In this document: positions 3,114 through 7,121 of the stretch, piece by piece
How the letters are laid out: the number at the start of each line of letters is the position of its first letter
How positions within the stretch are numbered: position 1 is the stretch's first letter
Origin: Cochleicola gelatinilyticus
GTDB lineage: Bacteria > Bacteroidota > Bacteroidia > Flavobacteriales > Flavobacteriaceae
Reading direction: 5' to 3'
DNA length: 64,000 nt
Assembly (NCBI RefSeq): GCF_001637325.1
Contig: NZ_LRXL01000052.1
Span: forward strand, 1 to 64,000
Program-made: the position numbers and the translations under genes
The notes under the pieces: generated by a model
What the model was told of the DNA's origin: nothing
The model's database searches: none
The model's input: only the letters and a program-made list of their open reading frames with translations

Positions 3114-3350
3114 TTAGTGATCGTCGTTACCTTCAATCTCATCTTCAACTTCTTCAGCTGCATTTTCTATAGCATCTCCAGTCTCTTCAACAGCTTCTTC
3201 AATAGCATCACCTGCCGCTTCTAAATTGTTTTCGGTGTCTTCGGCTGCAGCCTCTAGAGCATCTTCAGTTTTTTCTTCGGTAGTTTCTCTACATGAGGTG
3301 ATCGATACAAGTAAACTTAATGCAGCGAATGTTACAAATAATTTTTTCAT
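3114..3350 (-). CDS. Small acidic lipoprotein of the 'SCRE' family
   Basis: A 78-residue protein: MKK start, hydrophobic segment and lipobox ITSC with the lipidated Cys near residue 20, followed by RETTEEKTED. The mature part is almost entirely Glu, Asp and Ala in amphipathic units (AAGDAIEEAVEETG) that should form a negatively charged helix. It has three relatives in this window (6376-6612, 6640-6861, 6894-7121), all with SCRE right after the signal. It follows the TIGR03915 gene by only 45 bases, no promoter is visible in the gap, and a terminator follows it, so it may be the last gene of the radical SAM operon. Function unknown. Membrane anchoring by lipidation is the only firm prediction. 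Confidence 0.8.
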   Translation of the reverse strand: MKKLFVTFAALSLLVSITSCRETTEEKTEDALEAAAEDTENNLEAAGDAIEEAVEETGDAIENAAEEVEDEIEGNDDH

Positions 3351-3395: not shown

Positions 3396-4166
3396 TTAGG
3401 TCGATTGCTTTTCGCTTAAATATTTCCAATACCGCTTCGGAACGTGTTGTATGTGCAGTTTCATATTTTTTCGAGAAACAATATTTGTACTTTTAAAATA
3501 ATTCTTCCAAAGCTCTTGAAATTGAATTTCTTCCGAAGTAAAAATAGCATTTGAAGTAGTTGCATTTAAGATGGATGGTGGTAAATCTATTGTAATTGTT
3601 TCTACTGTATTTAAATTGTAAAAAAGGCCATAATCTCTTTTCGTATCATAGATAATCCATTTTTGATCGGCATATCGTTTTTTAAAATGTGATGCATTTA
3701 AGGGGAGTGTGTTAAAATCTGGTGCTACTATTGCAAAATAAATCCCATCTTTTGTTTGTTTAAAGCGTACAAACGCATCCATACGATGTTTTTCACGATC
3801 TACTTTCTTAGCAATTTTGCTTACCTCTAAAACTTTAGGGTCTGAAAAATCTGAATCGATCTTCCCCTTTTCTGTAAAGGCACGATGTAAATAATGTAAT
3901 AAAAGACTTTCTGTTAAAGGGGACTCACTTAAAAACACTTTATATATGTTTTGCCTTCCTTGAGTTGAACAGTTTTTTTTTATCCCTTTCCATACGCGAG
4001 CTGCTTTTCTAGAATTGGTGTTGATAGTTTCAATCGTGTCGAAAAATGTTTCCGAAGTAATTGCTTGCTTCTGAAGGGGTACTCCCATTAATTTACGGTC
4101 ATAAATTTCATAAACACCACTTAAAAATCCATCGAAAGAACCATCGTATGCTAAAATTGTGTTCAT
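3396..4166 (-). CDS. TIGR03915 family putative DNA repair protein (DUF4130)
   Basis: A 256-residue protein recognised as the DUF4130 / TIGR03915 family from its start (MNTILAYDGSFDGFLSGVYE), the central CSTQGRQNIYKVFLSES region and the C-terminal HIQHVPKRYWKYL. The family is almost always encoded next to the radical SAM protein of TIGR03916 and, in some lineages, is linked to a uracil-DNA-glycosylase-like domain, hence the repair label. The biochemical activity is not known to me. Its ATG overlaps the stop of the radical SAM gene by four bases (ATGA), so the two are translationally coupled and probably act together. There is no signal peptide, so it should be cytoplasmic. Confidence 0.88.
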   Translation of the reverse strand: MNTILAYDGSFDGFLSGVYEIYDRKLMGVPLQKQAITSETFFDTIETINTNSRKAARVWKGIKKNCSTQGRQNIYKVFLSESPLTESLLLHYLHRAFTEKGKIDSDFSDPKVLEVSKIAKKVDREKHRMDAFVRFKQTKDGIYFAIVAPDFNTLPLNASHFKKRYADQKWIIYDTKRDYGLFYNLNTVETITIDLPPSILNATTSNAIFTSEEIQFQELWKNYFKSTNIVSRKNMKLHIQHVPKRYWKYLSEKQST

Positions 4167-5446
4167 ACTGAAAGTTTTGAAGTAGCATCAAATAAATTTA
4201 ATTGATTGTTAAAGGTTTTTCTAAATTTACTGTTCGATTCTTGTAAAATTAGCCCTTTTATTTGTGCAGCAGTTCGGTCTTTAGTTTCGAATACACGTGA
4301 ATCGCATACCATAAAGTACTTAGCACGGTTCATGGCAATGCCAATTAATTTTAAATGCTCCCAATTAAGTTTTCTAAATCGTCTTGCTTGAAGAATCTTT
4401 CCAACCGATTTCATTCCTAGTCCAGGGATTCTTGCCAACATGCGTTTTTCGGCGGTATTAATATTTATTGGAAATTGATCTAAATTACGCAATGCCCAAC
4501 TTAATTTTGGGTCGATATCACTGTCTAAATTAGGATGATCTTTGTTTAATAATTCCCGAATATCGAAACCGTAAAATCGAAGTAGCCAATCGGTTTGATA
4601 CAATCTATTTTCTCTTAAAATGGGGACTTCGGTGCCTATAGAAGGAAGGCGTTGGTCGTAGCTAATTGGAATGTACCCCGAATAATACACTCGTTTTAAA
4701 TTAAACTTTTTATAAAAATAAGCTGAGGTGTACATAATTTCAGCATCGGTCTCTCCGCTGGCACCCACAATCATTTGAGTGCTTTGTCCTGCAGGCGCGT
4801 AGAGTGGAGTGCTTTTTATTAGTTTTTTCTCATTTTTATATTGTATAATTTCATTGGTAACTTTTTGCATCGGTTTTATAAAATCACTTCGATGTTTTTC
4901 TGGCGCTAAAAGCTTGAGTCCTTTTTCTGAAGGAATTTCAATATTCACACTTAATCGATCTGAATATAAACCTGCTTCGCGCATTAATTCATCACTAGCG
5001 CCGGGAATAGATTTTAAATGTATGTACCCATTAAAATTCTCTTCTTCCCTCAATTTTTTAGCTACAGCAATTAAGCGTTCCATTGTGTAATCGGCATTTT
5101 TAAAAATTCCACTACTCAAAAAAAGTCCTTCAATATAGTTTCTTCGGTAAAAGTTAATGGTAAGATCTACCACCTCTTGAACTTTAAAGGCTGCTCTTTT
5201 TATGTCGTTACTTTTTCGTGTGACACAATATGCACAGTCGAAAATACAATGATTGGTAAGTAAAATTTTTAATAAAGAAACACATCTTCCGTCTTCGGTA
5301 TAGGAATGACAAATGCCCATGCCACTACTATCACCTAAGCCTTTATTCTTATTGGTTCGTTTGCTTCCACTCGATGAGCATGAAACATCGTATTTAGCGG
5401 CATCTGCTAAGATGTTTAGTTTTTCTTTAATGCGTTCAAAATTCAT
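4163..5446 (-). CDS. Putative DNA modification/repair radical SAM protein (TIGR03916)
   Basis: A 427-residue protein with the radical SAM cluster motif C67-x3-C71-x2-C74 (HCIFDCAYC) for a 4Fe-4S cluster that cleaves S-adenosylmethionine. Additional cysteines at 23, 46 and 55 precede it. Near residues 325-350 a helix-hairpin-helix element (IPGLGMKSVGKIL) suggests DNA contact. This combination is the TIGR03916 family. The substrate is unknown. It is the first gene of a minus-strand operon with TIGR03915, and it diverges from an S24-type repressor gene. Boxes resembling operators fill the gap, so induction on DNA damage is a reasonable inference. Confidence 0.9.
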   Translation of the reverse strand: MNFERIKEKLNILADAAKYDVSCSSSGSKRTNKNKGLGDSSGMGICHSYTEDGRCVSLLKILLTNHCIFDCAYCVTRKSNDIKRAAFKVQEVVDLTINFYRRNYIEGLFLSSGIFKNADYTMERLIAVAKKLREEENFNGYIHLKSIPGASDELMREAGLYSDRLSVNIEIPSEKGLKLLAPEKHRSDFIKPMQKVTNEIIQYKNEKKLIKSTPLYAPAGQSTQMIVGASGETDAEIMYTSAYFYKKFNLKRVYYSGYIPISYDQRLPSIGTEVPILRENRLYQTDWLLRFYGFDIRELLNKDHPNLDSDIDPKLSWALRNLDQFPININTAEKRMLARIPGLGMKSVGKILQARRFRKLNWEHLKLIGIAMNRAKYFMVCDSRVFETKDRTAAQIKGLILQESNSKFRKTFNNQLNLFDATSKLSV

Positions 5447-5462
5447 ACGCTTAATTTTATTT

Positions 5463-5533
5463 GGAAATAAGACAAAAATATGGAAATATTCCTATATACT
5501 GGATTTATTCCTTTAATAATTTGGATTAATTCC
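5463..5533. promoter_or_regulatory. Array of three GGAnnnATTCC operator-like boxes plus one half-box
   Basis: The 92-base gap between the divergent radical SAM and S24 genes holds GGAAATATTCC (5482-5492), GGATTTATTCC (5501-5511) and GGATTAATTCC (5523-5533). A degenerate half-copy, GGAAATAAGAC, lies at 5463-5473. Starts are 19, 19 and 22 bases apart, about two helical turns each. Each full box has inverted GGA/TCC arms. The third overlaps the -33 element of the S24 promoter and the first abuts the -7 box of the radical SAM promoter. Binding by the S24 protein itself is inferred from position. Confidence 0.7.
5473..5480 (-). promoter_or_regulatory. -7 box of the radical SAM operon promoter
   Basis: On the minus strand this reads TATTTTTG, a match to the Bacteroidota -7 consensus TAnnTTTG, 27 bases before the ATG at 5446. 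No good -33 TTTG is seen. That region is occupied by the operator-like boxes at 5482-5511. Confidence 0.5.
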
Positions 5534-5550
5534 ATAAAATGCTATATTTG
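5520..5550 (+). promoter_or_regulatory. Flavobacterial promoter of the S24 regulator gene
   Basis: TTTG (5520-5523) and TATATTTG (5543-5550) are separated by 19 bases and match both the -33 and -7 Bacteroidota elements. The -7 box covers the ATG at 5539, so that ATG cannot serve in this transcript. The ATG at 5554 is then the likely start, on a nearly leaderless mRNA. Confidence 0.65.
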
Positions 5551-6375: not shown

Positions 6376-6612
6376 CTAGTTATTATCATCCGTTTTGATT
6401 TTGGTATTACCCTCATCATCGGTTTTAATTTTAACCTCTTTATTTTCAGTTTCCATTTTCACTTTCTGTCCGTCATCACTTACATCGATTTCGGCTCCGT
6501 CTTCTTTCATTTCTTCAATTAACTGTTCACTCTCTGTCTTTTGCTCTCTGCAAGAAGTGAATGAAACACTTAAAAATAAAGCTGAAAGAGTTATTAAAGC
6601 TACTTTTTTCAT
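6376..6612 (-). CDS. Small acidic lipoprotein of the 'SCRE' family
   Basis: A 78-residue protein with signal MKKVALITLSALFLSVS and lipobox FTSC followed by REQKTESEQ. The mature part is rich in Asp, Glu and Lys and ends with two copies of a KIKTDD motif (EVKIKTDDEGNTKIKTDDNN), unlike the Ala/Glu helical tails of its relatives. It is last in a run of three such genes on the minus strand with gaps of 27 and 32 bases, so probably one operon from 7121 downward, ended by the hairpin at 6325-6356. Function unknown. Confidence 0.78.
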   Translation of the reverse strand: MKKVALITLSALFLSVSFTSCREQKTESEQLIEEMKEDGAEIDVSDDGQKVKMETENKEVKIKTDDEGNTKIKTDDNN

Positions 6613-6639: not shown

Positions 6640-6861
6640 TTAGTTGTCGTCTGTACCACCAGTACCAGTGTTTTCTTGAATTTCGTCAACACCTTCTTCG
6701 ATAGCATCACCTGCATCGTCGATAGCATCTTCAACGTCGTCTGCTACATCATCTGCATCATCAACATTAATTTCTACTTTATCTTCTTTTGTCTCTCTGC
6801 ATGAAGTGAACGAAACACTTATTGCTGCTACTAATGCTAGGCTTAAAAATACTTTTTTCAT
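6640..6861 (-). CDS. Small acidic lipoprotein of the 'SCRE' family
   Basis: A 73-residue protein with signal MKKVFLSLALVAAISVS and lipobox FTSC followed by RETKEDK. The mature part is strongly acidic (DDADDVADDVEDAIDDAGDA), then EEGVDEIQEN and a Gly/Thr tail. The DAIxxAGDAIEE pattern is close to that of the member at 3114-3350, which points to recent duplication. Middle gene of the three-gene run. Function unknown. Confidence 0.78.
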   Translation of the reverse strand: MKKVFLSLALVAAISVSFTSCRETKEDKVEINVDDADDVADDVEDAIDDAGDAIEEGVDEIQENTGTGGTDDN

Positions 6862-6893: not shown

Positions 6894-7121
6894 TTAATCG
6901 TCATTTCCAATTTTATCGATCTCTTCATTTACCTCTTCATTTACTTCCTTGTCGATCTCTTTAGCAGTTCTTTCAAGAATTCCGTCATCTGCAGCATCAT
7001 CGGTTTCAACCTCGACTTCAACTTCACGAATTACTTCTTTAGTTTCTGTTTTTGTCTCTCTGCAAGAAGTAGTTAAAAAGGTAGCTCCTACTAATGCAAT
7101 TGCAATTGCAATTTTTTTCAT
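6894..7121 (-). CDS. Small acidic lipoprotein of the 'SCRE' family
   Basis: A 75-residue protein with a signal peptide, lipobox TTSC and the family RETKTETKE sequence. The mature part alternates Glu and Val (VIREVEVEVET) and then has acidic repeats (EVNEEVNEEIDKI). First gene of the three-gene run, with a TAnnTTTG box 30 bases upstream. Function unknown. A charged, surface-anchored spacer or ion-binding role would be a guess. Confidence 0.78.
   Translation of the reverse strand: MKKIAIAIALVGATFLTTSCRETKTETKEVIREVEVEVETDDAADDGILERTAKEIDKEVNEEVNEEIDKIGNDD

Follow-up and report, generated by a model that had tools for sequence, protein, structure and literature searches.

A stepped row of GGA-N5-TCC operators between a likely non-canonical LexA gene and a radical SAM operon in Cochleicola gelatinilyticus: a candidate hub of the SOS response

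In the 64,000-nucleotide stretch of Cochleicola gelatinilyticus DNA analysed here (the window), the gap between a minus-strand radical SAM gene and a plus-strand HTH_3/S24 repressor gene carries a stepped row of boxes, which raises the question of which regulator they belong to, which genes they govern and whether neighbouring boxes are filled together. Reading the sequence again, we recovered the layout given in the initial annotation, with exact GGA-N5-TCC boxes at 5482, 5501 and 5523, a weak fourth at 5463 and steps of 19, 19 and 22 bases, and the predicted -7 elements on both strands agree with its claim that the boxes overlap both promoters (Table 1). The gap itself, given there as 92 bases, measures 107 bases with the repressor start at its probable place, ATG 5554. 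In 50,000 dinucleotide shuffles of this 107-base gap, one box occurred in 887, two in 1 and three in 0, and of the 12 GGA-N5-TCC boxes in the 64-kb window, only those in this gap come as three within 60 bases. CTAA-N5-TTAG, the site of another group of Bacteroidetes non-canonical LexA, was found neither in the 107-base gap nor in the 200-base stretch preceding the radical SAM gene.

Table 1. Features of the divergent locus in the window and the other promoter regions of the genome with paired boxes
Feature	Position	Strand	Sequence	Basis and remarks
TIGR03915/DUF4130 protein	3396..4166	-		275.7 bits, cut-off 112.25
TIGR03916 radical SAM protein, putative DNA repair/modification	4163..5446	-		664.4 bits, cut-off 343.5
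Box 4, weak operator	5463..5473	+	GGAAATAAGAC	read in sequence; 4/6 fixed letters; covers predicted start of radical SAM transcript
Predicted -7 element of radical SAM operon	5473..5480	-	TATTTTTG	sequence and TAnnTTTG consensus
Box 3	5482..5492	+	GGAAATATTCC	exact; abuts -7 element of radical SAM promoter
Box 2, middle operator	5501..5511	+	GGATTTATTCC	exact; 19 bases from box 3, 22 from box 1
Possible -33 element of repressor promoter	5520..5523	+	TTTG	sequence and -33 consensus
Box 1	5523..5533	+	GGATTAATTCC	exact; just upstream of -7 element of repressor promoter
Predicted -7 element of repressor gene	5543..5550	+	TATATTTG	3 bases before ATG 5554
Repressor, likely non-canonical LexA, HTH_3 + Peptidase_S24, 256 aa	5554..6324	+		domains and aligned residues
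Small ORF + SRAP gene				paired boxes, step 20
SplB-like radical SAM gene				paired boxes, step 21
UvrD-like helicase gene divergent to GIY-YIG exonuclease gene				paired boxes, step 18
umuDC				paired boxes, step 19

The repressor contains PF01381 (31.1 bits, cut-off 23) and PF00717 (47 bits, cut-off 23.3), and Pfam at E <= 0.001 returned no LexA winged-HTH DNA-binding domain in it, HTH_3/HTH_19 being found instead. The cleavage site, Ser and Lys, which had been called intact, are indeed so, with A105-G106, S144 and K183 invariant in 38 of 38 aligned proteins, i.e., that of the window and 37 relatives of 45–84% identity; named relatives in the whole set of loci include Patiriisocius, Ulvibacter and Aequorivita. 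A weak match to UmuD (E 0.05) also brings the Ser and Lys into line with those of that protein. The predicted structure matches LexA and the phage 186 and lambda repressors (1kca, 2fjr), although confidence in the model is low, with a mean pLDDT of 68.1 and values under 50 at residues 78–133 and 225–237. At E <= 0.001 the genome has no match to the repressor other than itself. Placed by domains, residues and box, the S24 protein is likely the non-canonical LexA of Flavobacteriaceae belonging to the GGA-N5-TCC group. In the main-text parts of Sanchez-Osuna et al. 2021 (PMC8565304), such proteins are described as the non-canonical LexA of Bacteroidetes and the palindrome GGA-N5-TCC as the site of a group found mainly in Flavobacteriaceae, with autoregulation and an SOS regulon, and with gel shifts, in which mutated sites were no longer bound, and mitomycin C induction for the relative S. 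agarivorans DSM 23515. Since that palindrome is the wider form, GGAnnnATTCC, the box that the initial annotation did not recognise as a described flavobacterial SOS sequence, is a sub-case of it, and both regulator class and site are already published (PMC8565304, main-text parts). Among the entries listed in searches for later work on this regulator were PMC8565304 itself and at most papers citing the topic.

The boxes were then followed through relatives, an alignment that the initial annotation had proposed as a check, and both boxes and spacing are conserved. We compared 150 loci (the window plus 29, 80 and 40 from two overlapping genome sources), of which 13 duplicate the upstream stretch of another, leaving 137 distinct loci; the loci are related to one another and the counts are not independent. 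At least one exact box is present in 147/150 loci (134/137 distinct), and consecutive boxes are 18–23 bases apart in 199 of 222 steps (180 of 202 in the distinct loci), falling into two classes, 18–20 between distal and middle boxes and 22–23 between the middle and the repressor-proximal box. A single in-phase box was found in 22/150 loci, partly because the middle box is inexact, and no box in 3/150. Four exact boxes with the window's own steps of 19-19-22 occur in six loci, four of them distinct. Regarding the weak fourth box, 49 loci have a divergent radical SAM gene, and in 44 of them the -7 element of that gene is abutted by an exact box; the stretch exactly 19 bases beyond this box retains at least 5/6 letters in 37 of these 44 (5/6 in 31, 6/6 in 6), while the other offsets between 11 and 30, taken as controls, gave 0 matches each, except 2 at offset 23. 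The copy in the window, with 4/6 letters, is among the weakest; judged by this conservation, the weak fourth box is real.

Presence of the boxes follows the regulator, as two sets of counts show. A TIGR03916 gene turned up in 27 of 120 genomes, and where it adjoins the repressor, boxes lie upstream in 14/15 genomes; at the single miss (L237) the start is seemingly misplaced, and the same genome shows four boxes (L023). Where a close S24 homologue lies elsewhere in the genome, boxes precede TIGR03916 in 2/5, and in genomes without such a homologue in 0/7. Likewise, upstream of 20 distant S24 homologues from the same family (25–35% identity, picked from a longer list) GGA-N5-TCC was found in 0/20, and CTAA-N5-TTAG gave 0 exact sites and 7 with at most one mismatch. 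Since only two of the five TIGR03916 genes keep boxes when the repressor lies elsewhere, its control of this operon is not obligatory.

Comparison of the loci makes ATG 5554 (METQLSIEA), and not 5539, the probable start of the repressor. Where the alignment corresponds to 5554, 139/150 loci have an ATG, and the start at 5539 was rejected, as it lies upstream of the -7 element and only one (L055) of 17 other loci examined has an in-frame start at its place. Against 5554 it can be said that homologue matches often extend a few residues upstream of it, an extension that we put down to translation of the conserved -7 element; the M1 shared by the 38 aligned repressors is no evidence for the start, these proteins having been picked from loci with a projected start M. 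According to PMC9723704, TAnnTTTG is the flavobacterial -7 consensus, and in Flavobacterium psychrophilum the element spans -12 to -5 and leaderless mRNAs make up only 5.5%. In our set, strict TAnnTTTG occurs within 16 bases upstream of the ATG in 78/150 loci, 76 of the 78 at -11 or -12, compared with 237 of 30,000 shuffled stretches; a further 46/150 have it with one mismatch and 26/150 not at all. Since the -7 element ends 3 bases before ATG 5554, a leaderless repressor mRNA is predicted, whose 5' end should coincide with the ATG or lie no more than one base away. Some relatives of 55–59% identity have the -7 element farther up, array and promoter being shifted together, and their repressor mRNA would therefore carry a leader. 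As a side observation, both the GIY-YIG exonuclease gene (L003, minus strand, ATG 1487) and umuD (L015, 1520–1543) have a TATTTTTG element immediately behind a box, its end 4–5 bases from the ATG, and these mRNAs may be leaderless too.

The genes on the radical SAM side are as the initial annotation paired them: TIGR03916 and TIGR03915 adjoin, both score above their curated cut-offs, and the TIGR03915 gene shares its first four bases with the end of the radical SAM gene. A helix-hairpin-helix match in the TIGR03916 protein is weak (HHH_3, 24.5 bits, below the cut-off of 27), and in the partner no uracil-DNA glycosylase domain was found at E <= 0.001, only DUF4130/TIGR03915. We infer a repair role for the operon. 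A literature search returned no paper on TIGR03915, and one, PMC3765255, for rSAM_link_UDG, TIGR03916 and DUF4130. The AlphaFold model of the DUF4130 protein (mean pLDDT 84.5) resembles DHH/DHHA1 phosphoesterases, the best match being PAP phosphatase (Foldseek E 7e-5, probability 1.00), then RecJ and Cdc45; superposition on PAP phosphatase gave a Z of 9.3 with an rmsd of 5.2 over 196 residues, a Z only slightly above the level reached by models without a clear match. No DHH triad was found among the consensus and invariant residues of the DUF4130 alignment, and a comparison of this alignment with solved structures gave no convincing sequence match (best E 1.4). As far as the model can tell, the protein may have a RecJ-like fold lacking the usual metal site.

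What adjoins the repressor varies among the loci, and this bears on the view of the initial annotation that the array forms a self-contained, damage-induced switch confined to the radical SAM pair. The compact divergent layout would suit such a switch, and TIGR03916 is divergent to the repressor in 49/150 loci; however, the search next to the repressor revealed no TIGR03916 gene in the other 101/150, of which a few are cut off by the edge of a contig. Box number tracks the kind of neighbour: with an SOS-type divergent neighbour (counted as TIGR03916, DUF4130, Y-polymerase, SRAP or UvrA-like), three or more in-phase boxes occur in 56/74 loci (51/68 distinct), and with another neighbour, often a small lipoprotein, in 8/72 (7/65 distinct), the classes being assigned from simple text patterns and weak tblastn hits and 4 loci without a readable neighbour being left out. 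Loci without an SOS-type neighbour mostly keep one pair at 21–23 bases. Since box number follows the neighbour in this way, the counts suggest a division in which boxes 1 and 2 serve the repressor and the distal boxes serve the neighbour.

Two side observations concern these neighbours. In L125, L126, L128, L129, L131, L132 and similar loci, the repressor is divergent to a DUF4130-like protein and no adjoining radical SAM gene was found; in several of them a UvrA-like gene comes next, so the neighbour swaps and stays SOS-type. Four small, similar lipoprotein-like genes (3114–3350, 6376–6612, 6640–6861 and 6894–7121) flank the divergon in the window, encoding proteins of the form MKK...SCRE with acidic tails, and a lipoprotein of similar look, by text pattern, is the repressor's neighbour in 27/150 loci.

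Beyond the divergon, the genome has paired boxes at four further promoter regions, which makes five in all (Table 1; gene names are our reading of the translations). These pairs at SOS-type promoters speak against a self-contained switch, as does the published regulon, which is global (PMC8565304, main-text parts), and we regard a switch confined to the radical SAM pair as very improbable. The same parts of PMC8565304 give as targets a COG1573-COG4277 operon for UDG repair, splB, umuDC, COG2135 and COG0847, report two or more sites in several promoters and describe a regulon dominated by dinB. The initial annotation had pointed to recA and dinB as places to look for the box, and no exact box was found upstream of either in this genome, the umuDC operon having two. 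Single GGA-W4-TTCC sites occur at 61 distinct places in the genome, of which 37 were inspected one by one: 34 fall within ORFs that had been called mechanically (six of these sites in the first 100 bases), and the other 3 are members of the SRAP and SplB-like pairs. Among the remaining 24, 7 belong to known pairs or to this array and 1 lies inside umuC. The inspected single sites, 34 of 37 being intra-ORF, were not retained as further targets; one-box targets may lie among the other 16 of the 61.

Results of a family-wide scan for two A/T-spaced boxes 11–41 bases apart show a match in 49 of the 120 genomes searched, and the reversed pattern, used as a control, matched in 3/120. Steps were counted at no fewer than 75 distinct places, among the matches listed, on the plus strand, from 29 of the 49 matching genomes, and the places were hand-sorted by coordinates into the repressor promoter and elsewhere. 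Among the matches listed, the step is 18–23 in 69/75 places and exactly 19 in 35/75, the remaining steps being 14 (three places), 27, 35 and 40; away from the repressor promoter it is 18–23 in 43/48 and exactly 19 in 32/48, and at the repressor promoter 19 occurs in 3/27. Among the matches listed, box pairs are thus mostly stepped by 18–23 bases, and at places other than the repressor promoter the typical step is 19. Two turns of DNA take about 21 bases, and since the steps are close to this, neighbouring dimers would sit near the same face of the DNA. By analogy with CI, this suggests contact between neighbouring dimers, and a cooperative filling of neighbouring boxes is plausible.

The spacing could also be kept by promoter ties, each dimer binding its own box with no contact to its neighbour. 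On the radical SAM side, box and -7 element could both be identified in 47 of the 49 loci that have this gene, and in 43 of the 47 the first base of the box lies exactly 12 bases before the first base of the element (the smallest value was used if there were several). The repressor-side box is tied to its -7 element at 19–21 bases in 87 of the 101 loci with both found, of 150 (the pair nearest to 20 being used if there were several), and where the gap is compact, the promoter positions partly dictate the spacing. However, steps of 18–23 prevail off the repressor promoter too (43/48 of the places among the matches listed, 32 at 19), the loci with no SOS-type neighbour mostly keep their 21–23 pair, and the second box of a pair is not needed for covering a -7 element. 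Independent sites seem to us a serious contender, at odds short of even. With the same reserve we put forward, as a tentative proposal, a CI-like cooperative LexA acting on operator rows, in which 19-base pairs at the targets, its own pair at 22–23, a shared middle box whose dimer can partner either side and so balance two promoters, and a leaderless mRNA would together make a lambda-like chromosomal design.

Taking the evidence together, we consider the array to be a promoter hub of the SOS master repressor, controlling both divergent operons, with a probability of about 0.9. On DNA damage, RecA filaments would set off S144/K183-dependent cleavage of the repressor at A105-G106. With the array emptied, the two divergent operons would be expressed, along with the umuDC, SRAP, SplB-like and UvrD-like/exonuclease genes, until new repressor, translated from a probably leaderless mRNA, would reset the system. 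A rival reading would give the repressor a dual role as in lambda, where the middle box, filled alone, lets it act as an activator of either its own promoter or that of the repair operon, and the output would then not be plain repression. The CI-type HTH, the two step classes and the presence of three unequal boxes with a promoter on each side are in keeping with this, and activation by the regulator cannot be discarded according to the main-text parts of PMC8565304. On the other hand, boxes 1 and 3 cover core promoter regions, no obvious activating position exists besides box 2, and many relatives have two boxes only, so that such a dual role seems improbable to us.

Under the hub reading, a recently described SOS system of a large bacterial family has been recovered from raw sequence, together with design rules that can be tested: pairs mostly at 18–23 bases, one box locked to the -7 element and a box number that follows the repair-gene neighbour. 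The step rule, the weak fourth box, the neighbour-dependent box number and the leaderless start do not appear in the main-text parts of PMC8565304 that were compared. Cooperative binding, if true, would give these bacteria a sharper SOS response than E. coli has, nearer to a phage switch, and such a likeness would agree with PMC8565304, where a phage origin of the repressor is proposed.

Compared with the GGA-N5-TCC LexA group, the system described here has the same HTH_3 and S24 domains, Ala-Gly bond, Ser-Lys dyad and box in its own promoter, and from the translations read, the published targets appear to correspond to genes of this genome. It differs in that the repressor is divergent to TIGR03916/TIGR03915, that the second gene encodes a DUF4130 protein with no UDG domain detected and that dinB and recA have no exact box. 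With the CI repressors of phages lambda and 186 it shares the CI-type HTH joined to a cleavable S24 domain and the operator row between divergent promoters. The centre steps of the lambda and 186 operators are near 20 bases, as here, and the lambda repressor mRNA has no leader, as predicted here. Unlike these, the present regulator is chromosomal and has several targets and no cro-like gene in its gap. E. coli LexA differs in its winged HTH in place of HTH_3, its other box and the less usual pairing of boxes, and it is, as proposed here, a RecA-triggered and autoregulated S24 repressor.
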